From Candidatus Poribacteria bacterium (lineage in GTDB: Bacteria; Poribacteria; WGA-4E; WGA-3G): 64,000 nucleotides of DNA. Both the position numbers and the translations under genes were made by a program. Positions 9,065-59,739 of this stretch are shown here, in pieces (the stretch's first letter is position 1; each line of letters starts with the position of its first letter). The stretch covers positions 1-64,000 of the forward strand of contig JAPPIG010000043.1 in NCBI GenBank assembly GCA_028820635.1, read 5' to 3'. The notes beneath the pieces are model-generated. The model did not search any database, was not told where the DNA came from, and was given only the letters and a program-made list of their open reading frames with translations.

Positions 9065-9072
9065 GATACATT

Positions 9073-11124
9073 ATGGAGAAGTACAAACCTGATGGCACAC
9101 ACCTCATTAAACTTGATCCCCTCTTAAAGCCTTATACTCCCCAATTACGCGAAAGGTTTGCGCACTATCAAAGTATCAAAACTAAAACAGAAAAGACCGG
9201 AGGTGTATTAGGTGAGATTAGCCAAGGACATCTATTTTTCGGTTTCAACCGTGGCAAAAATGATGGTGAATCAGGTATCTGGTACCGCGAGTGGGCACCC
9301 GGTGCACAGTCCCTCTCCCTAATTGGCGATTTTAACGACTGGAATCGTGAGGTCAACCCAATGTCTATTGATGAATGGGGAATATGGCATCTGTTTCTAC
9401 CCAATAAACATTATGCAGATCGATTCACACACGGCACACGAGTCAAGGTGCATGTCAAATCAGCATTGGGCGAATTAGATAGAATCCCCGCCTATATCCA
9501 ACGTGTCATTCAAGAAAGTGAAACCGAATTCACAGGACAATATTGGTCACCGCCGAATCCATATCAGTGGAAGCATGACGCACCCGAATTTGACACCAAT
9601 ACCGAAGGACTAAAGATTTACGAAGCGCACGTCGGCATGGCACAAGAGGCAGAAAAAGTCGGAACGTTCGCTGAGTTTACACAAAATGTTCTGCCCCGAA
9701 TTGCCAATTTAGGTTATAACGCAGTGCAACTGATGGCTATTATGGAACATCCCTACTATGCAAGTTTCGGATATCACGTAAGCAACTTTTTCGCTGCTTC
9801 AAGCCGTTTTGGAACGCCTGAGGAATTGAAAGAACTCATTGATACGGCACACGGAATGGGGTTGCTGGTTATCATGGATTTGGTGCATAGCCATGCTGTT
9901 AAAAACATCAACGAAGGGTTGAACTGCTTTGATGGTACAGAACATCACTATTTTCATGCAGGTGAAAAAGGCGAACACACCGCGTGGGATTCACGCTGTT
10001 TCGATTACAGCAAATACGAGGTACAACGGTTTCTACTGAGCAATATCCGCTATTGGTTAGAAACCTATCGGTTTGATGGCTTCAGATTTGATGGTATTAC
10101 AAGCATGCTCTACAGCGACCATGGGCTTGGACAGAAGTTCACAGGCTATGGTGATTATTTTGGACCTAAAGTGGAGTTGGATGCTATCGCTTACCTAATG
10201 TTAGCAAATGAGGTTGTGCATGCTGTCAACCCAAACGCGATCTCTATTGCTGAGGATATGAGCGGAATGCCCGGTCTTGCACGCCCAATTGAAGAGGGCG
10301 GACTCGGATTCGATTATCGCCTTGCAATGGGTATACCAGACTACTGGATTCGGTTGTTAAAGGAGAAAAAGGATGAAGATTGGCATATCGGTGAGATTTA
10401 CGGCATATTGCGCAACCGCCGCGCAGGAGAAAAACACATCGCTTACGTTGAAAGCCACGACCAAAGCATTGTCGGTGACAAGACACTTGCGATGCAACTC
10501 ATGGACGCTGAACTCTACACAAAAATGAGCGTCTTCACGCCAAGCCTTAGAATTGCAAGAGGCGTTGCGCTGCACAAGTTGATTCGCCTTTTCACATTTA
10601 GTTTAGGTGGGGAAGGGTATCTCAACTTTATGGGCAATGAGTTTGGACACCCTGAGTGGATTGACTTTCCCCGAGCAGGGAACGATTTTTCCTATTGGTA
10701 TGCACGTCGGCAGTGGCATCTTGTTGATGATAACACGCTTCACTATCAACATTTGAACGCTTTTGATGTCGCGATGCAACTGCTTGATGCAAAGTATAAC
10801 CTGCTCACTGATGAAGACATTCAGTTGTTATTTATTCACGAAGACGCAAAACAGATTGTCTATGTGCGCGGAGGACTTGTGTTTGCCTTCAACTTCCATC
10901 CGACAGCATCTGCTACGGATTGGCGTATCCCCGTGCCTGAAAAGGCAGATTATCGTCCCATCCTTAACACGGACGGCACTGAATTCGGTGGCTACGGTGC
11001 CGTAGAAGGTGTCCATTATCCATGGCAGGACGTAGCGACAGAAGGGCATACACAATCTATTCAACTTTATGTTCCTGCCCGAAGTGCGCAAGTGTTTGTA
11101 CCGCAAAAGGTGTCAAATTCATGA
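9073..11124 (+). CDS. glgB: 1,4-alpha-glucan (glycogen) branching enzyme, eukaryotic-like GH13_8 type
   Basis: The 683-residue enzyme cuts alpha-1,4-glucan and rejoins it as alpha-1,6 branches in the cytoplasm. It has an N-terminal CBM48-like domain (WYREWAPGAQSLSLIGDFNDW, about 70-90), a GH13 barrel with nucleophile Asp340 (GFRFDGITSML), acid/base Glu394 (IAEDMSGMP) and transition-state Asp463 (YVESHDQSIVGDK), and a C-terminal all-beta domain. The wording of these motifs and the length match the eukaryotic-type subfamily GH13_8 and not the E. coli type. No other glycogen gene is present in the window. Confidence 0.95.
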   Translation: MEKYKPDGTHLIKLDPLLKPYTPQLRERFAHYQSIKTKTEKTGGVLGEISQGHLFFGFNRGKNDGESGIWYREWAPGAQSLSLIGDFNDWNREVNPMSIDEWGIWHLFLPNKHYADRFTHGTRVKVHVKSALGELDRIPAYIQRVIQESETEFTGQYWSPPNPYQWKHDAPEFDTNTEGLKIYEAHVGMAQEAEKVGTFAEFTQNVLPRIANLGYNAVQLMAIMEHPYYASFGYHVSNFFAASSRFGTPEELKELIDTAHGMGLLVIMDLVHSHAVKNINEGLNCFDGTEHHYFHAGEKGEHTAWDSRCFDYSKYEVQRFLLSNIRYWLETYRFDGFRFDGITSMLYSDHGLGQKFTGYGDYFGPKVELDAIAYLMLANEVVHAVNPNAISIAEDMSGMPGLARPIEEGGLGFDYRLAMGIPDYWIRLLKEKKDEDWHIGEIYGILRNRRAGEKHIAYVESHDQSIVGDKTLAMQLMDAELYTKMSVFTPSLRIARGVALHKLIRLFTFSLGGEGYLNFMGNEFGHPEWIDFPRAGNDFSYWYARRQWHLVDDNTLHYQHLNAFDVAMQLLDAKYNLLTDEDIQLLFIHEDAKQIVYVRGGLVFAFNFHPTASATDWRIPVPEKADYRPILNTDGTEFGGYGAVEGVHYPWQDVATEGHTQSIQLYVPARSAQVFVPQKVSNS

Positions 11125-21728: not shown

Positions 21729-24647
21729 TTATTCTTCAAGGGTGAAATGAAGCATGCCACTGCTTTGTGTCCCAACGTATAACGTGTTTCCATCAACAGC
21801 AAGAGAAATTACGTTGTCAGGTATCTCTGAAACGACTTGTTCCCAAGTGCCGCTTTCTAAACGATAGATACCGGTATCTTTGGTAACACCATAAAGCATT
21901 GTACCATCAGCAGTCAAGCGTTCCATAACGAGATTCGTTCCCTCTGCATCGGTGACGGTATGCCAATGTCTTCCATCATCTGATGTAATGATACCTGCGT
22001 CTGTTGCTACATAAACGGTAGAGCCAGCAAGCACAATATCATTAAAAGAGTTAACATGAAATGGCAGAGCAGGTGTAAGATCAACCCAGTTATTTCCTTT
22101 ATCAAACGATACGACAAGGTGACCATCCCGTTTCCCGACGTAGACGGTATTACCTGAAACTGCAAGTTTGAGTTTTCTTTTGGCAATATCCAAAGTCAAT
22201 TCAACGGTTTCTTCTATTCCAGTGTCGTGCCATTCTGTATCACCTTGCTGCCATCGGAAGAGCTTATAGTTATATTCAACGTAGAACGTGTCGTCGGTAA
22301 CTGCAAACGCTCCGTGTAACCCCCTTTCTGTAAGGTCACTTCTAAGTTTACTTTTTGGTTGTGTAAACAGTTTAAGAAACTGAGTTGCGCCAAGAGCTCT
22401 TCCTTCAGACATCAGTACCTCTAAGTTCAATGAATTAAAAGCTGGCATACCCTGAATCTGCACAAGCGTCCTACCATCACTGGATAAGCGATAAATACGT
22501 GTATAATAACTGGGATATACATTTTCCTTACCCTTTGCATAAAGGACATTATCGTGCTTAATAATTTGGGTGATATGCGGTGGTGTTTCACTGTTAGGTT
22601 CTGTCATTGGTATCGCTATTTGAACGGGTTTCCAGGAATTGCCGCCGTCATCGGTTTTTTGAATTTGATCTCTGTATCCTGTTGCTAATTCCATTCTTGC
22701 ATAGAGAGCAGCAGGTGTGCTTTGATCTTTATCAGTCTTTTTAAAAGCGATTAGATCATATATATTTTCTTCCTCTTGCTTGATGTTCATCTTGTGCCAT
22801 GATTCACCGAGATCAGTGGAATAATGGAGTCCGTTTTCACTACTGATATAAATAGTGTCCTTTTTCACTATCGCAACTGGAGAACCACCTCCCATTGTCG
22901 GTGATGTGTTATGTGCTTGTGGACTCAGCCAGGTATCTCCACCGTCAATTGAACGCACCATTCCCTGTCCCATCGCTAAAAGCGTATCACCAATAGCAAT
23001 AAGTTTTATACTAAGAAAATCAACATTTATATGCCAAGCATTTGTAGGTGTAATGTCTTGCCACGAATCTCCGAGATCCGTTGATCGAAATATTCCCCAA
23101 GTACGTTTCAATTTTTGAGAAACTTTCGAATCCAACCTTGCAGCAACATAGAGTTTTCTGTCGGTTGCTGCAGTTGAAATAACGTCGCCAATCGTGACTG
23201 GGAATTTCAAGCGTTTCCAACCGTCACCACTGTAGCGGTAACAACCATTGTTAGTTCCCGCAAAAATCGTGTTCTGGATCTCAAATAATGATTTGATTCT
23301 TCCCATCAACCCTTCGCTTATGTTTTTCCATGTTTTGCCTTTGTCCTGAGACTGGAGAACATCACTCCCAGAAGTGACGTAAAACGCTTGTTTCGTTAGT
23401 ACTAATTTGTACCTCCCCTTTTTCCAAGAATAGAGTAAATTCCAAGTTTCACCGTCATCATTTGAAGTTAAGAGCTCATTATTTGGCAAAAAGTACAAAG
23501 TATTGTTCCACTTGGATATAGAGGCTCCACCTCCAAAGGAAGTGAATTTGTCAATGTGGATTCGTTGCCAAGTGTTTTTTCCTGTTGCTAATTTGTAGAC
23601 AGAAATATAACTCATAATTACATAGAGATCCCCATCAGGAGTAGTGTGTAGGTTATTTGCTGGGGCACCACTAACTTGTTTTGCCTGAATCCACTGTTGT
23701 TTTTGATTAGACATGTCTTCTCCTTCCGCCTGCGCGGCGGTAAATAATATTTCATCAGGTTTCTGTCCGTTATTATCGCTTTCACCAAGTGCATTTGAAC
23801 TCCCAAGCTCGCGCCGAATATCTGGTGTCGCCTCAAGATTTAGCACAATAGGCGTGTCAACAAGTTCAACTGTCATCTCAGTCTGTGCATCTAATGTATA
23901 AGGCTGTTGAAAACGGAGTAATTGTTGACTACCTATTCCAAGCATAAACACAATTAAAATAGCACTTGTAGCAGCAATCGCCCACGGCACGAAAGGGTTG
24001 CTTACTGAAGGCGTAGGTTTAAGACGGGAAACTTCTTGCATGATGTTATCGGTTAGGTTCGGTGAAAGTTGGAAATAGTCGAGTGCTTCTTTAATCATCG
24101 TTTCCTCTTTCTTTAAACGGTTCCGCGCACGTTGCAGTCGACTCTTAATCGTTCCCGCAGATACCCCTAAGAACCTGCTAATCTCTTCGACTGTCATTTC
24201 GCCAAGATAGTGGAGCGTCATGACCGTGCGTTCGCTCTCTTTCAACTTCGCGAGTAGTCTCTTGACCACCTCGCGTTGTGATTCAACTGCGGTTTTAACT
24301 CGTTCTTCTGCGACATGTCGGGAATAAGCATCTCTTTGTATCATGGTTGTCTCTGCGTCCTCCAACGGTTGTGTTCGTATCCGTTTTTTGCGGAGCCAAG
24401 CGTAGCATCGGCGCGTCGCAATCACATAGAGCCACCCAGAAAACTGATTTGCGTCTTTCAGGGTGTGAAGTCTCTGATACACTTTCAGGAAGGTATCTTG
24501 TGTAATCTCTTCAGCGATGTGGAAATCCCCAATTTTTCGCCAAGCCAGCGCATGAACCGGCTTTTGATACTTTTTCACAAGCTCAGCGAAAGCGGACTCA
24601 TCGCCAGCGAGAACCAGTTGGATGAGTTTAACATCGTCGTTTTTCAT
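21729..24647 (-). CDS. Transmembrane ECF sigma factor with extracytoplasmic Asp-box propeller (paralogue 3)
   Basis: The 972-residue protein has sigma regions 2 and 4 (1-180; ISRFLGVSAGTIKSRLQRAR), a membrane helix (WAIAATSAILIVFMLGIG) and an outer Asp-box domain with eight motifs such as SNDDGETW, SQDKGKTW, STDLGDSW and SFDKGNNW. I set the start at the ATG at 24647 (MKNDDVKLI), although the frame is open to 24773. The shorter start aligns with all paralogues, and the ECF-like promoter at 24693-24719 lies inside the longer frame. The C-terminus ends like its sisters in GMLHFTLEE. Confidence 0.9.
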   Translation of the reverse strand: MKNDDVKLIQLVLAGDESAFAELVKKYQKPVHALAWRKIGDFHIAEEITQDTFLKVYQRLHTLKDANQFSGWLYVIATRRCYAWLRKKRIRTQPLEDAETTMIQRDAYSRHVAEERVKTAVESQREVVKRLLAKLKESERTVMTLHYLGEMTVEEISRFLGVSAGTIKSRLQRARNRLKKEETMIKEALDYFQLSPNLTDNIMQEVSRLKPTPSVSNPFVPWAIAATSAILIVFMLGIGSQQLLRFQQPYTLDAQTEMTVELVDTPIVLNLEATPDIRRELGSSNALGESDNNGQKPDEILFTAAQAEGEDMSNQKQQWIQAKQVSGAPANNLHTTPDGDLYVIMSYISVYKLATGKNTWQRIHIDKFTSFGGGASISKWNNTLYFLPNNELLTSNDDGETWNLLYSWKKGRYKLVLTKQAFYVTSGSDVLQSQDKGKTWKNISEGLMGRIKSLFEIQNTIFAGTNNGCYRYSGDGWKRLKFPVTIGDVISTAATDRKLYVAARLDSKVSQKLKRTWGIFRSTDLGDSWQDITPTNAWHINVDFLSIKLIAIGDTLLAMGQGMVRSIDGGDTWLSPQAHNTSPTMGGGSPVAIVKKDTIYISSENGLHYSTDLGESWHKMNIKQEEENIYDLIAFKKTDKDQSTPAALYARMELATGYRDQIQKTDDGGNSWKPVQIAIPMTEPNSETPPHITQIIKHDNVLYAKGKENVYPSYYTRIYRLSSDGRTLVQIQGMPAFNSLNLEVLMSEGRALGATQFLKLFTQPKSKLRSDLTERGLHGAFAVTDDTFYVEYNYKLFRWQQGDTEWHDTGIEETVELTLDIAKRKLKLAVSGNTVYVGKRDGHLVVSFDKGNNWVDLTPALPFHVNSFNDIVLAGSTVYVATDAGIITSDDGRHWHTVTDAEGTNLVMERLTADGTMLYGVTKDTGIYRLESGTWEQVVSEIPDNVISLAVDGNTLYVGTQSSGMLHFTLEE

Positions 24648-24692
24648 CGGGTGCCTCCAGAAAAAGTTCAATTTTTCATACTGAACCCTTGT

Positions 24693-24730
24693 GACGCGAC
24701 TTAGGAGGAAAACGGTTGCATAATTCTGCA
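24693..24730 (-). promoter_or_regulatory. ECF-like promoter motif of sigma fusion 3
   Basis: Minus strand: GCAACCGTTTT (GCAACC at 24714-24719), 17 bp, then CGTC (24693-24696) in CGCGTCAC. The TGCAGAATTATGCA block (24717-24730) is again present. Its position supports translation from 24647 and not from the longer open frame. Confidence 0.65.
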
Positions 24731-24797
24731 AAAGGAGAAATTTTTGAGGAAAAGATAGGAAAAAGGACGACATGCTGTGCCATCCTGATAAGATTAG

Positions 24798-27700
24798 TTA
24801 TTGTTCAAGAGTTAAATGCAGTATACCGTCAAATACTGTCCCTAAGTATAAATTGCTGCCAGCAACAATAAGAGATGTTCCGTTAGCCGTTACATCCATA
24901 ATTGCCCCTTCCGGTATCTCTGTGATGATCTGTTTCCAAGTACCAGTATCACTTTCCAAAATATATAGATCCGTTTTTTTCGTGATACCATATAGTGTTG
25001 TGCCATCAACTGCTAATTGTTCCATGATGAGATTTGTTCCTTTTGCATCAGTAAGGATACGCCAATTTCTGCCATCATCAGATGTAATCATGCCTGCGTC
25101 TGTTGCAACATACACGGCGGATCCAGCAACCATAATCTCTTTGAAAGTTGTAACAGGAAATGGCATTGCTGGGGTGAGATCAATCCAATTTTCTCCCTTA
25201 TCAAAAGATACGAAAAGGTGGCCATCACGTTTTCCGACGTAGACTGTGTCTCCTGAGACAGCAAGTTGGAGACCTTGCCAAGCTATGATTGAAGTCTCTT
25301 GCCTTATGTCTTGCCATGCAGTATCTCCTGGTTCCCATCGAAAGAGTTTAAAGTTGTACTCCATATAGAACGTATCATCACTTACTGCAAAGGTTCCGTT
25401 AAGTCCTCTTTGGATGAGTCTTTCCTGTTGTTGAGGAGGTGATGTAAGCAACTCTTTGAAGAATTGAGTTGCTCCAGAAAACTCTCCCTGTAGCGTCTCT
25501 ATAGAGAAATTTTGATGTTTACGCAGATGGTCTCTTAATTTCCTTGAGTCGAAGGTAGGAATTCCTTGAATAGGGACTAATGTATCACCATCTTCGGATA
25601 CGCGATAGAAACGCAATTCTCCGATGGGATAATCACTCTGACCTTTTGCGTAGATTACATCATCAGTTGTAGTTAGCTGATTAATCCTTGGTTGGTTTTC
25701 TCTTACAGGAGTCGTCATAGGTATTTCAATCTGAACAGTGTTCCAAGACTTACCTTGGTCAGTTGTTTTTACAATCCTTGACACATCAATCCCGTAGAGG
25801 GTAGGCAGCCTGTTTTGCATTTTTCTGTTCTCATTGAATTTGATTAGGTTTTCTATGACATACCTCATCTTATCCTGAGCGATTCTTGCTTTTTCCCAAG
25901 ATTGACCAGCATCAGTAGAGCGGTGTAAACCACCTCTTGTAGCAAAAAATGCGCTTTCATTTACTGCTACAGGAGCTATATCAGAGGAAACTTTCATAGG
26001 GAAAATGGTAGAGGCTTGTGGTGTCATCCAAGTATCTCCTCCATCGGTAGAACGCACCAGCCCTTGTCCCATCAATAGAAGAGTTTCACCAGCAGCAACC
26101 AGATTGATATCGGGTGGCAATCCCTTTACGGGCCAGGCATTTGTCGGTGTAATATCTTCCCATGAATTTCCGAGGTTTGTTAATCTGAATATCCACCAGG
26201 TCCGCTGTTGTCCCTCCCGTGCAGCTTTATCATCAAGAGAGTCACTACCTAATGATGCCATTACGTACAGTCGATCTTTGGTGGCTGCGGCGCTGGTGAC
26301 CAATATTGCTTCAGGTACGGGTAATTTTATACGTTCCCATCTACCTGTGTTCCAACGATACAACCCGGGGTTTGATCCAACATATACTGTGTTCTGTATT
26401 GCTATAAAAAAGTTGGAACCTTGAAATAATTCAACGTCCACATCCTTCCATGTCTTGCCTCTATCCTCTGAACGGAAAACGGCATTGTTAAATTGGACCC
26501 AAAATACTTGATCTGTAAGCACTAATTTGTAAGGCCGACAATAATCATCTGTCCATGAATGAACAATCTTCCAGTTCTTTCCATCATCTTCTGAAGATAA
26601 AAATAAATTTTGTAATACAATATAAAGTGTATTGTCCCACTTTGCTATCGGAACTTTACTTGCACTATTGATCTCAATCTGTTTATCATGGACTTCTCTG
26701 ATGTCACCACTAACTTGTTGCCATCCCGTGGTATCGTCATGCCATTTGTATATGTGTGCAAAATTAACAGCGTAAAGTTCTTTCTCTTCGGTGGCGCATA
26801 TACCTTGTACTAAGCTTCCATAGATAGGTTCAGACAGGATCCACTGATGTTTAGGAGTTGAAACATCTTCTCCTTCCACCTGCGCGGCGGCTAATAATAT
26901 CTCATCGGGTTTTTCTCCGTGGTTGTCACTTTTAGCAAGTGCAGTTATATTCCCAAGTTCAGGACGAACATCTGGCTTTGTATCAAGATTTAACATAATG
27001 GGAGCGTCAACGAGTTCAATTGCTCTTTGGGATTGTGCATCTAAACTATAGGGTCGCTGGAAACGTGCTAAGTATTGACTGCCTATCCCAAGCATCAGCA
27101 CAATCAAAACTGTACTTGCAGCACCTATCACCCATGGGAGCAAAGGTTTACTTGCAGATGGTGTAGCAGGTTTTAGACGATTGATTTTTCGCATAATGTT
27201 TTCAGTTAGATTCGGAGAAATTTGGAAATTGCTAATTGCTTCTCGGATCATTGGTTCCTCCTTTTTCAAGCGGTTCCGTGCGCGGCGAAGTCGACTCTTA
27301 ATTGTATTTGCGGATACACCTAAAAACTCGCTCATCTCCTCACATGTCATTTCGGCAAAGTAGTGAAGCGTGATGACGGTGCGATCACTTTCCTGCAACG
27401 TCTCAAGCAATTTTTTGACAACTTCCCGCAGTTCTTTGTCAACAGTTTTTGCCTGTTCCTCAGCAACATGTTGTGAATAAGCATCTTTGTTTGTCGCTGG
27501 TGTCCCTACATTTTCCAGTACTTGTTTCTGCAGACGCTTTTTGCGGAACCATGCAAGGCATCGACGTGTCGCAATCACATAGAGCCACCCCGCAAACCGC
27601 TGCGGTTCTTTGAGCGTGTGAAGTCTTTGGTAGGCTTTGAGGAAAGTATCCTGCGTAATATCTTCAGCAGTGTGAAAATCACCTACTTTCCGCCAAGCGA

Positions 27701-27800
27701 GCGCGTGAACTTGTTTTTGATATTTCTTTACTAATTCGGAGAAGGCGTTGTTATCGCCTGCAAGCGTACGTTGAATCAGTTCAGCGTCGTCGTTTTTCAT
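24798..27800 (-). CDS. Transmembrane ECF sigma factor with extracytoplasmic Asp-box propeller (paralogue 4)
   Basis: The 1000-residue protein repeats the family plan: sigma regions 2 and 4 (1-180, with MSEFLGVSANTIKSRLRRAR as in paralogue 1), membrane helix (WVIGAASTVLIVLMLGIG) and outer domain with Asp-boxes such as SEDDGKNW, SEDRGKTW, STDGGDTW and SFDKGENW. Its sigma half is closest to paralogue 1 by eye, whereas its C-terminus has diverged (GILHLTLEQ). The ATG at 27800 is preceded by GGAGGTAGCC and by an ECF-like promoter motif. Confidence 0.9.
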   Translation of the reverse strand: MKNDDAELIQRTLAGDNNAFSELVKKYQKQVHALAWRKVGDFHTAEDITQDTFLKAYQRLHTLKEPQRFAGWLYVIATRRCLAWFRKKRLQKQVLENVGTPATNKDAYSQHVAEEQAKTVDKELREVVKKLLETLQESDRTVITLHYFAEMTCEEMSEFLGVSANTIKSRLRRARNRLKKEEPMIREAISNFQISPNLTENIMRKINRLKPATPSASKPLLPWVIGAASTVLIVLMLGIGSQYLARFQRPYSLDAQSQRAIELVDAPIMLNLDTKPDVRPELGNITALAKSDNHGEKPDEILLAAAQVEGEDVSTPKHQWILSEPIYGSLVQGICATEEKELYAVNFAHIYKWHDDTTGWQQVSGDIREVHDKQIEINSASKVPIAKWDNTLYIVLQNLFLSSEDDGKNWKIVHSWTDDYCRPYKLVLTDQVFWVQFNNAVFRSEDRGKTWKDVDVELFQGSNFFIAIQNTVYVGSNPGLYRWNTGRWERIKLPVPEAILVTSAAATKDRLYVMASLGSDSLDDKAAREGQQRTWWIFRLTNLGNSWEDITPTNAWPVKGLPPDINLVAAGETLLLMGQGLVRSTDGGDTWMTPQASTIFPMKVSSDIAPVAVNESAFFATRGGLHRSTDAGQSWEKARIAQDKMRYVIENLIKFNENRKMQNRLPTLYGIDVSRIVKTTDQGKSWNTVQIEIPMTTPVRENQPRINQLTTTDDVIYAKGQSDYPIGELRFYRVSEDGDTLVPIQGIPTFDSRKLRDHLRKHQNFSIETLQGEFSGATQFFKELLTSPPQQQERLIQRGLNGTFAVSDDTFYMEYNFKLFRWEPGDTAWQDIRQETSIIAWQGLQLAVSGDTVYVGKRDGHLFVSFDKGENWIDLTPAMPFPVTTFKEIMVAGSAVYVATDAGMITSDDGRNWRILTDAKGTNLIMEQLAVDGTTLYGITKKTDLYILESDTGTWKQIITEIPEGAIMDVTANGTSLIVAGSNLYLGTVFDGILHLTLEQ

Positions 27801-28008: not shown

Positions 28009-29325
28009 TTATTGTAATCCAGATTCTATAGATATATTCGCGAGAAAAGAATTGACACTCTCCTTTTCATTGAACGAATTGCCGATAGCACCCAATTTAA
28101 AGACTTTGCCTTGATCAAAACGGTGTATAATTTTTCCTGCTTTGCCGCTCGGAATACCTGACGCTGAGGCGAGCGCTGTCTGAGGAATTCGTTCTGAGGG
28201 AAGTTCAGTGTCGCTATCAAATAAGTTGAATGAACCAGATGTCTCAGCACTCCCGACCCAAATATCAATGGTGAGCGTGCCGCCATCCTTGAATGCTGTC
28301 ACATCAATTTCAACAATAGTGTAGTCCTGAGAGTGTGTGTCAGGTGTTCGGAAAATGCCTAAGACATCTTTTGAGGGCTGCTCACCGTTAAGAACGATAT
28401 TTTCTACCAGAGCAGTAGATAAAACGTTGTCTGATTTTGGAGTGATTCCTTCGCTTTTACCGGAAACATCAGACTGCCCTAATTGATTTCTTGCATTCGG
28501 CTTTGACGGGATATTCAAGACAATGGAATCGTCAATGATTTCAACTTTCATTTCTGATGTGGCATCAAAACTGTAGGGTTGTTGGAAACGGGCAAAGTAT
28601 TGATTACCTATTCCCAACATCAGGATCGCTACAACGAAGGTTGAAGCAGCGAGTGCCCACGGTAACAAAGGTTTACTTGCAGAAGGCGCAGCGGGTTTAA
28701 GATGGGAAATTTCTTGCATGATATTATCGGTTAGGTTAGGTGAGATTTGGAAGTGTTCAAGTGCTTCTCTGATTATCGTTTCCTCTTTTTTTAAACGTTG
28801 TCTGGCACGTCTAAGACGACTTTTTATTGTACTCGTTGATACACCTAAAAATTTGCTAATTTCTTCACATGTCATTTCTCCAAAATAGTAAAGTGTCATC
28901 ACCGTCCGCTCACTATCTTGTAACTTTGCAAGCAGCTTTTTAGCCACTTCGCGCTGCGTTTCAGCAGTAGCTTTTGCTCGCTCCTCAGCCACATATCGGG
29001 AATATGTTTCACCTTCTATCAACTCAATATCTGTATCTTCCAACGCTTGCGTCTGAAAGCGTTTCTTACGAAGCCAAGCGAGGCAACGACGTGTAGCAAT
29101 TACATAAAGCCATCCAGAAAACTGATTTGGATTTTTCAGACTTACTAATTTCTGATATACTTGCAAAAAGGTGTCTTGTGTTATTTCTTCAGCAATATGG
29201 AAATCACCGATTTTTCGCCAAGCCAGCGCGTGGACTTGCTTCTGATATTTTTCAACCAAAGTAGCAAAAGCACTGTCATCTCCTGCAAGGATGCGGTCAA
29301 TCAGCACAACATCATCGTTTTTCAT
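28009..29325 (-). CDS. Short transmembrane ECF sigma factor with a different outer domain (paralogue 5)
   Basis: The 438-residue protein has the same sigma half (1-180; ISKFLGVSTSTIKSRLRRAR), linker and membrane helix (about 222-244) as the large paralogues. Its outer part is not an Asp-box propeller. Instead residues 320-436 form a compact domain (VLGIFRTPD ... DYTIVEIDVTAF ... FKLGAIGNSF) that is also the C-terminal domain of the neighbouring selenoprotein. The start is the ATG at 29325 after GAGGTG; a TTG four codons earlier is less likely. A TATAAT hexamer at 29355-29360 suggests a housekeeping promoter; the ECF-like motif is absent. Confidence 0.87.
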   Translation of the reverse strand: MKNDDVVLIDRILAGDDSAFATLVEKYQKQVHALAWRKIGDFHIAEEITQDTFLQVYQKLVSLKNPNQFSGWLYVIATRRCLAWLRKKRFQTQALEDTDIELIEGETYSRYVAEERAKATAETQREVAKKLLAKLQDSERTVMTLYYFGEMTCEEISKFLGVSTSTIKSRLRRARQRLKKEETIIREALEHFQISPNLTDNIMQEISHLKPAAPSASKPLLPWALAASTFVVAILMLGIGNQYFARFQQPYSFDATSEMKVEIIDDSIVLNIPSKPNARNQLGQSDVSGKSEGITPKSDNVLSTALVENIVLNGEQPSKDVLGIFRTPDTHSQDYTIVEIDVTAFKDGGTLTIDIWVGSAETSGSFNLFDSDTELPSERIPQTALASASGIPSGKAGKIIHRFDQGKVFKLGAIGNSFNEKESVNSFLANISIESGLQ

Positions 29326-29462
29326 AAGACACCTCAAATTAATGCTTCATTAATATTATATCATCAATGTAGTATACTGATGCAATTTAAACAAGTGCTT
29401 TCTGCCTCCACACTCATTAGAGATTCTTACATAGATATTCAAGGCATTGCTGCTTATGAGTG

Positions 29463-29538: not shown

Positions 29539-31227
29539 TTAGTCTTCTTTTCCGAGTTCCGTCTCTACAGAGATTCGTAAAAGAAAAGCGTTAATGCTCC
29601 CCTCTTCACTGAACCAACTACCAGTAGCACCTAACTTAAAGGCTTGACCCTGCTCAAAATCATACTTGATTGTTTTACTTTTACCAGGTCGAATATCCCA
29701 TGCGGAGGCAAGTGCACCTTTAGGCATACCCGTTTTTGGTAACTCTGTCTTGGCATCATATAGATCAAACGAACCCATAGATTCAGCATTCCCAACCAAG
29801 ATATTGAGTAAGAGTGTGCCGCCATTTTTAAACGCTGTTGCGTCAATTTCAACGACAGTATAATCTTGAAAACCCTCTTTTGAAGTTCGGAAAATGTTAA
29901 GGACTTGCTGCTCGGGTTTTTCATCAGTGAGTGTTACTTTCAAACTTCCCGTGACTGGACTATCTAAGTTGCGGAGGTCTTCTGAATCAGTTTTAGATGA
30001 AGGTTTCGCGACACCTCCGCTCACACCAGGAGTTTTTCCCGCTAAGGAGTCCTGGAGAAACGTCAGGTAATTCTCAGCAGGATCTTGTACAGTAAGCAAC
30101 TCATTGACCGGTAGGCTACCCATCAATTCAAACTCAGACGAGATAACTAAACAATCCGCTGGGGAATACTCATTCCATCCCTTCATGATTGCTTGTGCCA
30201 ACGCGTGCGTAGTATTAAACGTCTTGGATTCTCGCTTGCGCCGCTTAGCAATAGGATCTTGTAAACTGGGGGAACGTCCTAAGTCCGCATTGAACACCCA
30301 CGTGTTGATGAAATTTTCGTTCAGGAATTTTACGACTCGGTCATCGGAGAGGACAACTGCCCTCAAACTTTTGCCGCTCCCTCAGCACGCTTCGTCATCA
30401 AGCGGTCCGTTTATTGAAATCGCATGAACAGGCTTCTGATGTGCAGGTGACATTTTTAATGCTTCGTCTATTGATACCCAGTTAATTTGCTGCGACTTAT
30501 AGAAACGTAATTTTAAAAGACGTTTTGCTTCTTCCAGAGTGATAGCCTCTGTGAATTTAGCGTTTTGTAAAATATCTTGTGTTCCGGCACGAAGTTCTAT
30601 TTGCGGGCAATAACCCATGTCCGTTCCAAAACTTTGTGCACCTTCATGTTGCTTATTGACATCAAAATTTATCAGTGCTTCAGGAACCCGCATCTCAAAA
30701 AACGCTACCTTCTTTCCGATTCGGTCAATCACAAGATGTCCAGCGAACTGTGAGGGCGTAAACCACCCATCTTTCAACTTGAACTCGGCATGAATCCGAA
30801 ACATAATGTCGGCAAACCTATCGTTGTAAGCGCGCAAGCATGCCCATAACCCACGGGAATCCCCCATATTAATGTGCATGTCCAGATGCGGATTTGGATG
30901 CAATTGCCGAAGCAGTGTGAGAACACCCTCCTCCTCTATCTGCCAGAGTCCACCAATGGAAACTGCTTGGTTCGGCAGAAAAGCGCGGAAAACGGTTTCG
31001 GGATACTGCTTCTCTGGCTCGGCAACCCGCAGGTCTGCCAATGTATCCCACGTTACATGGAAATTATCTTGTGTGTATTCAACTGGGGCGATAAAGCCCT
31101 TTATGTGTACTTCTTGCCCACTATCAAGGGTGAGCATAATCTTGTTGTTATCCGTCAAACTCTCATCCGCGTGAAGTTGCCCAGTTATCAAAACTAAAAC
31201 AAAGCAACTCCAAATTAAGGTTTTCAT
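29539..31227 (-). CDS. Exported thioredoxin-fold selenoprotein (in-frame TGA as Sec)
   Basis: I read one 562-residue protein through the TGA at 30382-30384. Part 1 (1-281) starts with a signal peptide (LIWSCFVLVLITGQLHA) and ends NGPLDDEAC. After the TGA the same frame continues GSGKSLRAVVLSDDRVVKFL, giving Cys-Sec-Gly-Ser-Gly at 281-285 in a thioredoxin-like context. A hairpin at 30349-30364 fits the bacterial SECIS pattern. The C-terminal ~115 residues match the outer domain of sigma protein 5. The downstream half alone has only a TTG inside the hairpin as start and no signal peptide. An ECF-like promoter lies at 31367-31393. If TGA is a true stop, this is a broken gene instead. Confidence 0.78.
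30349..30364 (-). promoter_or_regulatory. bSECIS-like hairpin
   Basis: In the mRNA, GAGGGC (30364-30359) pairs with GUCCUC (30354-30349), including one G-U pair, around the loop AGUU. The loop begins 23 nt after the UGA and carries G as its second base. These features meet the published bacterial SECIS consensus (16-37 nt spacing, G among the first two loop bases). Confidence 0.65.
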
Positions 31228-31366
31228 TTAAAATCTCCTTATTTTTATCATATCAAGATTTGATTTTAGATTATATATCTCACGATTCACTCAAAGGGTA
31301 ATGAAAAAGTGAAATACTTAGATTATCTCTTTCAAAAAAGAGGTATCTTTTTATTTACAATATAGT

Positions 31367-57814: not shown

Positions 57815-58087
57815 ATGCAACTTCAATTCTATACGAAACCGGACTGCCCGCTCTGTGACGAAGCAAAGATCGTGCTGCAGAGCATCGGAGCGAAGACATC
57901 ATTTGTTACAATAGAAGAAATTGACATTACAAAAAATTTGGGGTTATTCACAAAATATAAGCATCTGATTCCTGTACTTGAATTAGATGGTCAACAACTT
58001 TTTGTGCATCGTGCTACCTATTGGAAGTTAATATGGCAGCTGCGGTGGCATCGGTTTCGGAAATTCTTGGCAAAGTTTGCAAGCTAA
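57815..58087 (+). CDS. Glutaredoxin-like (DUF836-type) thiol protein
   Basis: The 90-residue protein has the glutaredoxin-like start QLQFYTKPDCPLCDEAK with a CPLC site and the cis-Pro segment YKHLIPVLELDGQ. It resembles the glutaredoxin-family DUF836 group. The frame is open upstream to a TTG at 57773 but the ATG at 57815 matches family length. Its end lies 32 bp before the gamma-glutamyltransferase start, so the two may be co-expressed in glutathione-related metabolism (inference). Confidence 0.85.
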   Translation: MQLQFYTKPDCPLCDEAKIVLQSIGAKTSFVTIEEIDITKNLGLFTKYKHLIPVLELDGQQLFVHRATYWKLIWQLRWHRFRKFLAKFAS

Positions 58088-58119
58088 AACTTGCAATAAA
58101 AAATAACGAGGAGGTAAGC

Positions 58120-59739
58120 ATGGCTTTTCCATCACACGGCACAACACATCGATCCACAGTAACGGGGACACGCGGAATGGTGACAAGTGCACATCCGCTT
58201 GCAAGTCTTGCAGGCGCACGCATGCTGCTCGCTGGGGGCAACGCTTTTGATGCAGCGGTCGCAGTCGCGTCCACTCTCAACGTCGTTGAACCTTACATGT
58301 CAGGTATTGCTGGCAACGGGTATATGCTGCTCTATAGTGCGAAGGAAAAAGCGCACCGCGTGATAGATTACCTGGGAACTGCCCCTTACGCAGCGACGCT
58401 GGATGTCTATCCAACGCTTGAGAGTCAACAAGTTGGCATCCGTGCGGGGATGGTACCGGGTGGATGTGGTGGATGGCTGGCACTTTTAGACCGTTACGGA
58501 AGCATGGATCGCGCGGACATCTTTGCCCCGGCGATTGAATCCGCAGAGAATGGGTACGCTGTAACGGTCAAGAATGCGGAGTTTATTGCTGGCGCACGTC
58601 CCTATTTTTCAGATAGAGCTGAGGAGGTTATTGCCTCAAGAGGGAGAACACCGCGTCCCGGCGAACTTTTGGTACAGAAGGATCTCGCCCAAACGTTCCG
58701 TACGGTTGTGGAAGGCGGTGCAGAGGCGTTCTACCGCGGTGAGATTGCCGAAGAGATTGTCCGTTTTTCCGAGGAGACTGATGGACTAATTACCGAAAAA
58801 GATTTAGCTGACTTTGAGGTAGAGTGGCAGGATCCTATCTCTGTAACTTACAAAGATTATGAAGTTTATTGTCCACCCCCGCCGTGTTCAGGTTTTCAAT
58901 ATCTGGAGACACTAAATATTTTAGAAAACGATGCCCTCGGTGAACTCGGTCACAATACCCCGGAATACTTACATCTGCTGATTGAAGCGATTAAATTAGC
59001 GAGTGCAGATAGAGCCGAATATGCCCCGCGTCCAAACCCACCGATTGAAAAGTTGTTGTCTAAAGACTATGCACAGGCGCAACGCGAACGCATTGGCGAA
59101 CTGGCTGCAGTCAGTGGTGGTGAACGCTGGTCGAAGGACAAACTCCCTGGTGAGATTGTTGCTGATGACTGGACAACCGAATGTACAACGCACTTTGACA
59201 CCGCAGATGCAGAGGGTAACATCGTCGCTGTTACGCAAAGTCTTGGACAAGCTTTCGGCTCAGGCGTAATTCTCGGTTCAACGGGAATGTTCCTCAACAA
59301 CTTTATGAATTGGTTTGACAGGATTCCAGAGAGTCCGAATGCCGTTGGACCGCATAAACGGATAGAGATGTGCATGTCACCGTGCCAAGTTTGGAAGAAC
59401 GGAAATCCGTTTGCAGCGATTGGCACCCCCGGAAGCCACGGTATCCTTCAGACGACGTTACAGATGGTTTTGAACCTGATTGAACATGGCATGAACGTTC
59501 AAGCGGCGATTGAAGCACCACGCATCCGGTTGGTAAAACCCAGTACACATGTCAGTATGGAGGGACGTATTCCTGTTGCGGTACGCGCAGCGTTAGAAGC
59601 GCGCGGGCATGATGTAGAAGTGTTACCTGATTGGACAGCAACTGTGGGAGGCGGTCACGGTATCGCCTTTGATACTGAAGAAGGAAGTTTTATGGGCGGT
59701 GCTGATCCGCGGCGTGATGGATACGCGATAGGTGTGTGA
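58120..59739 (+). CDS. ggt: Gamma-glutamyltransferase
   Basis: The 539-residue Ntn-hydrolase cleaves gamma-glutamyl bonds, for example in glutathione. Motifs include GMVTSAHPLASLAGARMLLA, NAFDAAVAVASTLNVVEP and the autoprocessing/catalytic Thr region ECTTHFDTADAEGNIVAVTQ. There is no clear signal peptide. Start ATG at 58120 follows a strong GAGGAGG; the frame is open to 58021 but overlaps the glutaredoxin-like gene. Nudix gene follows closely. Confidence 0.9.
   Translation: MAFPSHGTTHRSTVTGTRGMVTSAHPLASLAGARMLLAGGNAFDAAVAVASTLNVVEPYMSGIAGNGYMLLYSAKEKAHRVIDYLGTAPYAATLDVYPTLESQQVGIRAGMVPGGCGGWLALLDRYGSMDRADIFAPAIESAENGYAVTVKNAEFIAGARPYFSDRAEEVIASRGRTPRPGELLVQKDLAQTFRTVVEGGAEAFYRGEIAEEIVRFSEETDGLITEKDLADFEVEWQDPISVTYKDYEVYCPPPPCSGFQYLETLNILENDALGELGHNTPEYLHLLIEAIKLASADRAEYAPRPNPPIEKLLSKDYAQAQRERIGELAAVSGGERWSKDKLPGEIVADDWTTECTTHFDTADAEGNIVAVTQSLGQAFGSGVILGSTGMFLNNFMNWFDRIPESPNAVGPHKRIEMCMSPCQVWKNGNPFAAIGTPGSHGILQTTLQMVLNLIEHGMNVQAAIEAPRIRLVKPSTHVSMEGRIPVAVRAALEARGHDVEVLPDWTATVGGGHGIAFDTEEGSFMGGADPRRDGYAIGV

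Follow-up and report, generated by a model that had tools for sequence, protein, structure and literature searches.

On the minus strand of a contig from Candidatus Poribacteria, two open reading frames share one frame and are separated by nothing more than a TGA. Are they the halves of a broken gene, or a single gene in which UGA is read as selenocysteine (Sec)? The window analysed here, a stretch of DNA of 64,000 nucleotides, carries the pair at positions 29539-31227, and a sequence-only reading had proposed a new exported selenoprotein with a thioredoxin-like active site. Its account of the frame and of the TGA context was accurate: a single minus-strand frame of 562 codons runs from an ATG at 31227 to a TAA at 29539 and is interrupted once, at residue 282, by the TGA at 30382-30384, in the context GAC GAA GCG TGC TGA GGG AGC GGC, a position fixed by the sequence and by the family alignment. 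On the same strand, AAGGAG, which resembles a ribosome-binding site, lies 7 nt ahead of the ATG (31235-31240). The upstream half does open with a signal-peptide-like N-terminus (MKTLIWSCFVLVLITGQLHA|DE; residues 1-20, 31168-31227, minus strand, read by eye), and the downstream half, taken by itself, does begin with TTG in the list of open reading frames. Judged from sequence and its comparison with relatives, 29539-31227 is very probably a true selenoprotein gene of the selenoprotein N family, with the UGA at 30382-30384 decoded as Sec.

The codon at residue 282 was counted in fetched, chosen loci, from frames cut at TAA and TAG. In a first set, 149 of 153 distinct sites have TGA, the others being GGC (two), GGA and TCA (one each); in the enlarged set TGA occupies 187 of 191, beside three Gly codons and one Ser codon, and the TGA at this position is therefore not due to chance. 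Cys, TAA and TAG occur at none of the 191 distinct sites in the fetched loci. The alignment spans the TGA, and of the two residues that the sequence-only reading had anticipated in homologues, Cys or Sec, it was the Sec codon, TGA, that was found. Outside this count stand two listed full-length rows without TGA (G031, G050) and 12 fragments that fall short of the site (16 at a laxer score); because cutting at TAA and TAG could have hidden such codons, these 16 were inspected, and in no case does a stop at residue 282 end the fragment. Over the 191 sites the motif reads CUGSG (137), CUGTG (24), CUASG (13), CUANG (12) or CUADG (1), with four sites lacking Sec. In the first set Cys directly precedes the site in 153 of 153 cases and S or A precedes that Cys in 150, hence ACUG in the window protein and SCUG in others. 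Just one TGA lies within the domain in 183 of the 187 Sec members.

The four Gly or Ser copies (L066, L068, L069, L070) differ in the hairpin that follows the codon. Its 6-bp stem is lost in L066 and L070, both with Gly, and retained in the other Gly copy and in the Ser copy. With Gly or Ser at these four of the 191 sites, and the hairpin kept in two of them, Sec is not indispensable in every copy; and as the three exceptions that were placed in the tree all fall within the long-form clade, loss of Sec in that clade would be the simplest reading. The half of the protein downstream of the UGA is under purifying selection. Across 176 members the median dN/dS is 0.189 for codons 101-281, ahead of the UGA, and 0.173 for codons 284-400, behind it; the downstream value stays below 0.5 in all 571 usable pairs, which are not mutually independent, with none above 0.47.

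The hairpin itself lies at 30349-30364 (minus strand), with the 6-bp stem GAGGGC/GUCCUC and the loop AGUU that had been claimed for it, the loop starting 23 nt after the UGA. For bacterial SECIS elements, the available part of a 2026 catalogue gives a stem of 4-16 bp, a loop of 3-9 nt with G in the first two positions that lies 16-37 nt after the UGA, and a minimum free energy (MFE) of at most -7.5 (PMC13188914). These rules were run as a script of our own in place of the bSECISearch program; the window hairpin, with an MFE of -11.6 for 36 nt, falls within all of them, and in loop, stem and spacing so does every one of the 187 Sec members, the energy rule being judged on the window hairpin only. 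The RNA is moreover constrained beyond what the protein demands. A stem of at least 6 bp is present in 184 of the 187 real sequences vs 825 of 3740 codon shuffles that preserve the protein, and, measured against codon shuffles, the 36 nt that follow the UGA have a mean folding z of -1.87 and an overlapping segment four codons on has -1.29, with values from -0.32 to 0.24 at eight other offsets. For the window gene alone the corresponding z is -2.3, which is suggestive by itself; the strength comes from the family. In the first set 132 of 149 members form all six pairs; at the two pairs that vary, 276 of 298 cells are base-paired, and 10,000 shuffles made without regard to kinship never exceeded 263. 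Nine of the 19 most synonymously constrained codon columns, out of 465, fall within codons 283-293 (Mann-Whitney p 4.9e-7), where the remaining two columns rank 73 and 244. A divergent subfamily keeps the hairpin with a different sequence and with the loop shifted by one base.

The genome of the window (G000) holds selA, selB, selC and selD, whose presence had been proposed as a check. The gene for tRNA-Sec, with anticodon TCA, lies at C49:34659-34748 (78.1 bits, gathering score 47) and is directly adjoined by selB (348.7 bits, cut-off 242.25); selA scores 611.8 bits and selD, which has one in-frame TGA of its own, 370.1 bits. Among 145 genomes searched, selB exceeds the cut-off in 59 of the 64 that are family-positive, and the five that fall below it (G003, G010, G048, G053, G056) are 73-83% complete. 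Of the eight genomes of the same order in which the family was not found, seven likewise exceed the selB cut-off: selB presence is no predictor of the family, and the Sec machinery is wider in distribution than the family.

The sequence-only reading could attach no known name to the family, which we take to be selenoprotein N (SELENON, SEPN1; UniProt Q9NZV5). Against an unverified fragment of human SELENON, written out at a time when the window protein was already known, the window protein scores 135 bits, with 32% over 245 alignment columns (residues 105-316), where the best of 1000 shuffled copies reaches 26.9 bits; the alignment runs through the N-terminal and thioredoxin-like domains and places Sec on Sec. 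The short paralogue L116, first seen only after the human fragment had been written out, scores 161 bits against it (34% over 305 columns), and all 187 members match the fragment, the weakest at 73.9 bits. Positions reported for human clinical variants, for example 273, 293, 315, 340, 453 and 469, fit the fragment too; a literature search found no published lists of SEPN1 variants. When Sec is set at 462, the fragment ends at 590 and has Arg at 466, both as stated in the accessible text of a published account (PMC12839072). By these alignments the Poribacteria proteins are judged homologous to eukaryotic selenoprotein N, and a known selenoprotein family would therefore gain a new branch in bacteria. 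In a tree whose root was placed on the unverified human row by choice, that row joins between the short and the long bacterial clades, on a long branch.

The N-terminal SELENON-type domain covers approximately residues 28-245 (30493-31146, minus strand), with the human-fragment match starting at residue 105 and with C130 and C207 nearly invariant in the family alignment; the thioredoxin-like domain, delimited by the human-fragment alignment and a profile match, covers approximately residues 246-400 (30028-30492, minus strand) and contains C281-U282-G-S-G. Both domains align with SELENON, with Sec at the same place, Cys before it and GSG after it. EF-hand calcium control is central to human SELENON; a PS00018-type EF-hand pattern occurs in 0 of 140 bacterial members, and such control seems unlikely in the bacterial family. 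The window protein has a signal-peptide-like start, whereas SELENON has a type II membrane anchor in the ER. Eukaryotic Sec insertion is signalled by a SECIS element in the 3' UTR, in contrast to the in-frame bacterial SECIS found here, and the bacterial family further differs from SELENON in its multi-copy arrays, its ECF sigma neighbour and, in the long forms, an extra C-terminal beta-sandwich. The scarcity of Cys forms is shared: there are none at the 191 bacterial sites, and algal SELENON has almost exclusively Sec, according to the accessible text of a 2020 paper (PMC7539508). The redox motif of SELENON has likewise been published, in sources available in part, as SCUG in a thioredoxin-like region, and variants of C427/U428 have served to trap partners of human SEPN1 (PMC7474598).

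The description of the protein as thioredoxin-like stood at the level of profiles and gained no backing from structure models. A comparison of the family profile with ten Thioredoxin_7 proteins of the same lineage gives a probability of 94.6% over 55 columns and puts U282 opposite the attacking Cys of WCGSC, a position that is itself encoded by TGA in seven of the ten proteins. The family thus resembles Thioredoxin_7 (PF13899)/DUF255-type proteins in having U282 on the attacking Cys of WCxxC, but the resolving Cys of CxxC is Gly, and a Cys stands before the Sec instead. Because AlphaFold models of the Sec domain are poor (mean pLDDT 46.7 and 44.0; five sequences), the thioredoxin fold is not backed by structure. 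Searches of Pfam, NCBIfam and PDB sequences with the window protein returned no family match, no PDB sequence relatives of the bacterial proteins were found, and a PDB search with the family profile gave nothing better than E 0.32. Nothing in Pfam reached the curated cut-off; DUF255 was touched there by one of 26 members, at E 0.091, and was treated as chance. Foldseek, run on the first model, found faint similarities to PliG, to Tk-SP and to collagen-binding domains, which are taken to reflect the better-modelled C-terminal beta-sandwich.

Other in-frame TGAs were seen in Thioredoxin_7 proteins proper. L150, L151, L153, L154 and L155, from Poribacteria relatives, are exported-looking and have TGA at the attacking Cys (WUGSCK, WUGYCK, WUSWCK), and two Thioredoxin_7 rows of G000 (G000:C123:167179-167436 and G000:C107:41176-41433) have one in-frame TGA each. 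In L156 and L159 the frame contains two TGAs (RUVPUVSC), after which come a CIHCH motif and stretches that look PDZ-like by eye. These two may be double-Sec proteins, perhaps close to a Trx7/PDZ family that has been catalogued.

The C-terminal beta-sandwich, approximately residues 426-557 (29557-29952, minus strand), is delimited by the model and by alignment with a sigma factor. This ECF sigma factor is encoded 201 nt downstream on the same strand (28009-29337), has a hydrophobic, TM-like stretch (by eye) and ends in the same domain, 53% identical over 129 residues. Ten matches to the domain in G000 are to selenoprotein N genes of C54, C34 and C45 or to that sigma factor, and none was seen elsewhere in the genome. 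All 28 distinct sigma-domain ORFs of the fetched loci lie on the same strand as, and within 400 nt of, an ORF of the family or of the C-terminal domain, and 23 of them carry the C-terminal domain by cut-off, some ORFs being clipped by the locus end; as the loci were chosen around the family, the association holds at these loci only. A signal-peptide-like start is seen by eye in the window protein and several long forms and is not obvious in most short divergent forms. Further along the window, 21729-24773 and 24798-27800 (both minus strand) encode two more ECF sigma factors that run on into long, beta-propeller-like C-termini with Sortilin/BNR matches, fusions that appear in line with a sigma gene beside the selenoprotein.

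Used as a query, the window protein matched 64 of 145 genomes; among the matches listed, most rows have exactly one inner TGA, four are free of stops and a few contain another stop besides. A profile built from 26 members, in a scan that scored only the best few candidates per genome, likewise hit 64 genomes out of 386. All of these belong to a single order of Poribacteria (58 of 58 in the window's own taxonomic family, and two of two, four of nine and none of three in three others), and the 314 genomes outside the order gave no match. A search of seven genomes with residues 1-400 gave 67 matching rows, from 3 to 18 per genome with fragments included; 61 span residue 282, and all 61 contain a TGA, one of them with a TAA as well. 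The genes often stand in tandem across the 64 genomes. G000 has eight, with one TGA apiece: besides the window gene there is a tandem row of five on C34, and C117 and C45 hold the two divergent copies. Among single-contig assemblies the highest number of matching rows is 12, in G043. No relatives were found on viral contigs. At G034:C1:3785846-3786966 a copy lies in two pieces within an array, one with an inner TAG, and is an apparent pseudogene.

How else might these observations be read? Standard translation does yield two ORFs, the second with a TTG start, and the TGA could accordingly be a real stop or nonsense mutation, followed by a decayed remnant or a separate gene; yet TGA at 187 of 191 sites, the lack of a terminating stop at the site in all 16 fragments, the downstream dN/dS of 0.173 that never exceeds 0.5, the RNA-level constraint after the UGA and the complete Sec machinery of the genome make this extremely unlikely. 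UGA might instead be decoded as something other than Sec, for instance by reassignment, in keeping with the rarity of TGA as a stop: it ends three of 31 long stop-to-stop frames of the window, one of them the selenoprotein's own, and none of nine other neighbouring genes checked. However, the remaining two frames (9067-11124 and 57982-59739, unconfirmed as genes) do end in TGA, and the UGA sits at the catalytic Cys of a thioredoxin-like motif and at the Sec position of human SELENON, is followed by a SECIS-like hairpin in a genome with tRNA-Sec, selA, selB and selD, and is the only TGA of the domain in all but four Sec members. Such decoding is thus very improbable.

Many Poribacteria are sponge symbionts, and the gene might be eukaryotic host DNA contaminating a metagenome bin. 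SELENON has indeed been described in animals and algae (PMC2375036, PMC7539508), but a family that recurs in 64 genomes, in arrays, with bacterial ECF sigma genes alongside, with a bacterial-type in-frame SECIS, in a frame without introns and in single-contig assemblies with up to 12 matching rows leaves contamination hardly conceivable. Finally, a selenoprotein might be granted and the resemblance to SELENON put down to a faulty human sequence, given that the fragment was written out only once the window protein was known. This is very improbable, since L116, fetched later, scores higher than the window protein, since the length and Arg 466 agree with published values once Sec is placed at 462, and since the SCUG motif and the vicinal C427/U428 are both published in the accessible sources. 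A selenoprotein of the selenoprotein N family, as opposed to these alternatives, has the support of the sequence checks that the sequence-only reading had proposed, namely of the Sec machinery, of a TGA kept in homologues and of a SECIS-like hairpin kept beyond protein demand; sequence comparison likewise supports the arrays and the sigma neighbour.

The accessible text of a 2007 paper called SelN animal-specific (PMC2375036), with algae added in 2020. The bacterial proteins resemble those of the 2026 catalogue of 119 prokaryotic families in their in-frame UGA, bacterial SECIS and SelB/SelC/SelD, but Table 1, in the available part of that source, lists neither selenoprotein N nor any CUGSG motif (PMC13188914). 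The accessible parts of PMC9312934 and PMC12013277 make no mention of a prokaryotic homologue of selenoprotein N, and PMC5029168 is without any terms for one. Among the matches listed in our literature search, which covered openly accessible papers, there was no report of a prokaryotic selenoprotein N, and no paper joining selenoprotein N and Poribacteria was found in the searched literature.

We infer export, reductase chemistry, partners and regulation along the following lines. SelB and Sec-tRNA would decode the UGA at 30382-30384 as Sec, guided by the in-frame hairpin at 30349-30364, to give a protein with a signal peptide, a SELENON-type N-domain, a thioredoxin-like domain and an added C-terminal beta-sandwich. 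Outside the cytoplasm, as its N-terminus suggests, Sec282 may attack a partner's disulfide or oxidised thiol, after which Cys281 would resolve the mixed selenosulfide, since the resolving Cys of CxxC is Gly; the protein would then likely be an exported selenol/thiol reductase. The many paralogues in arrays suggest many partners, and joint control or sensing is suggested by the neighbouring ECF sigma factor, which has a TM-like stretch and shares the C-terminal domain. A tentative, rather speculative extension is that SELENON crossed between Poribacteria and eukaryotes, in either direction, with its Sec codon kept, and that the Poribacteria arrays and ECF sigma factors, tied by their common C-terminal domain, form a selenium-based extracytoplasmic redox-sensing system.

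SELENON mutations cause human myopathies. Purifying the human protein is difficult, and its structure had not been solved as of 2020, according to the accessible text of one report (PMC7474598); bacterial homologues of approximately 390 residues without an obvious signal peptide might offer a tractable system for SELENON chemistry and structure. The prokaryotic selenoproteome would gain a family, with several matching rows, fragments included, in each of seven genomes, and with it comes the question of how a selenoprotein gene passes between domains of life whose Sec signals differ.
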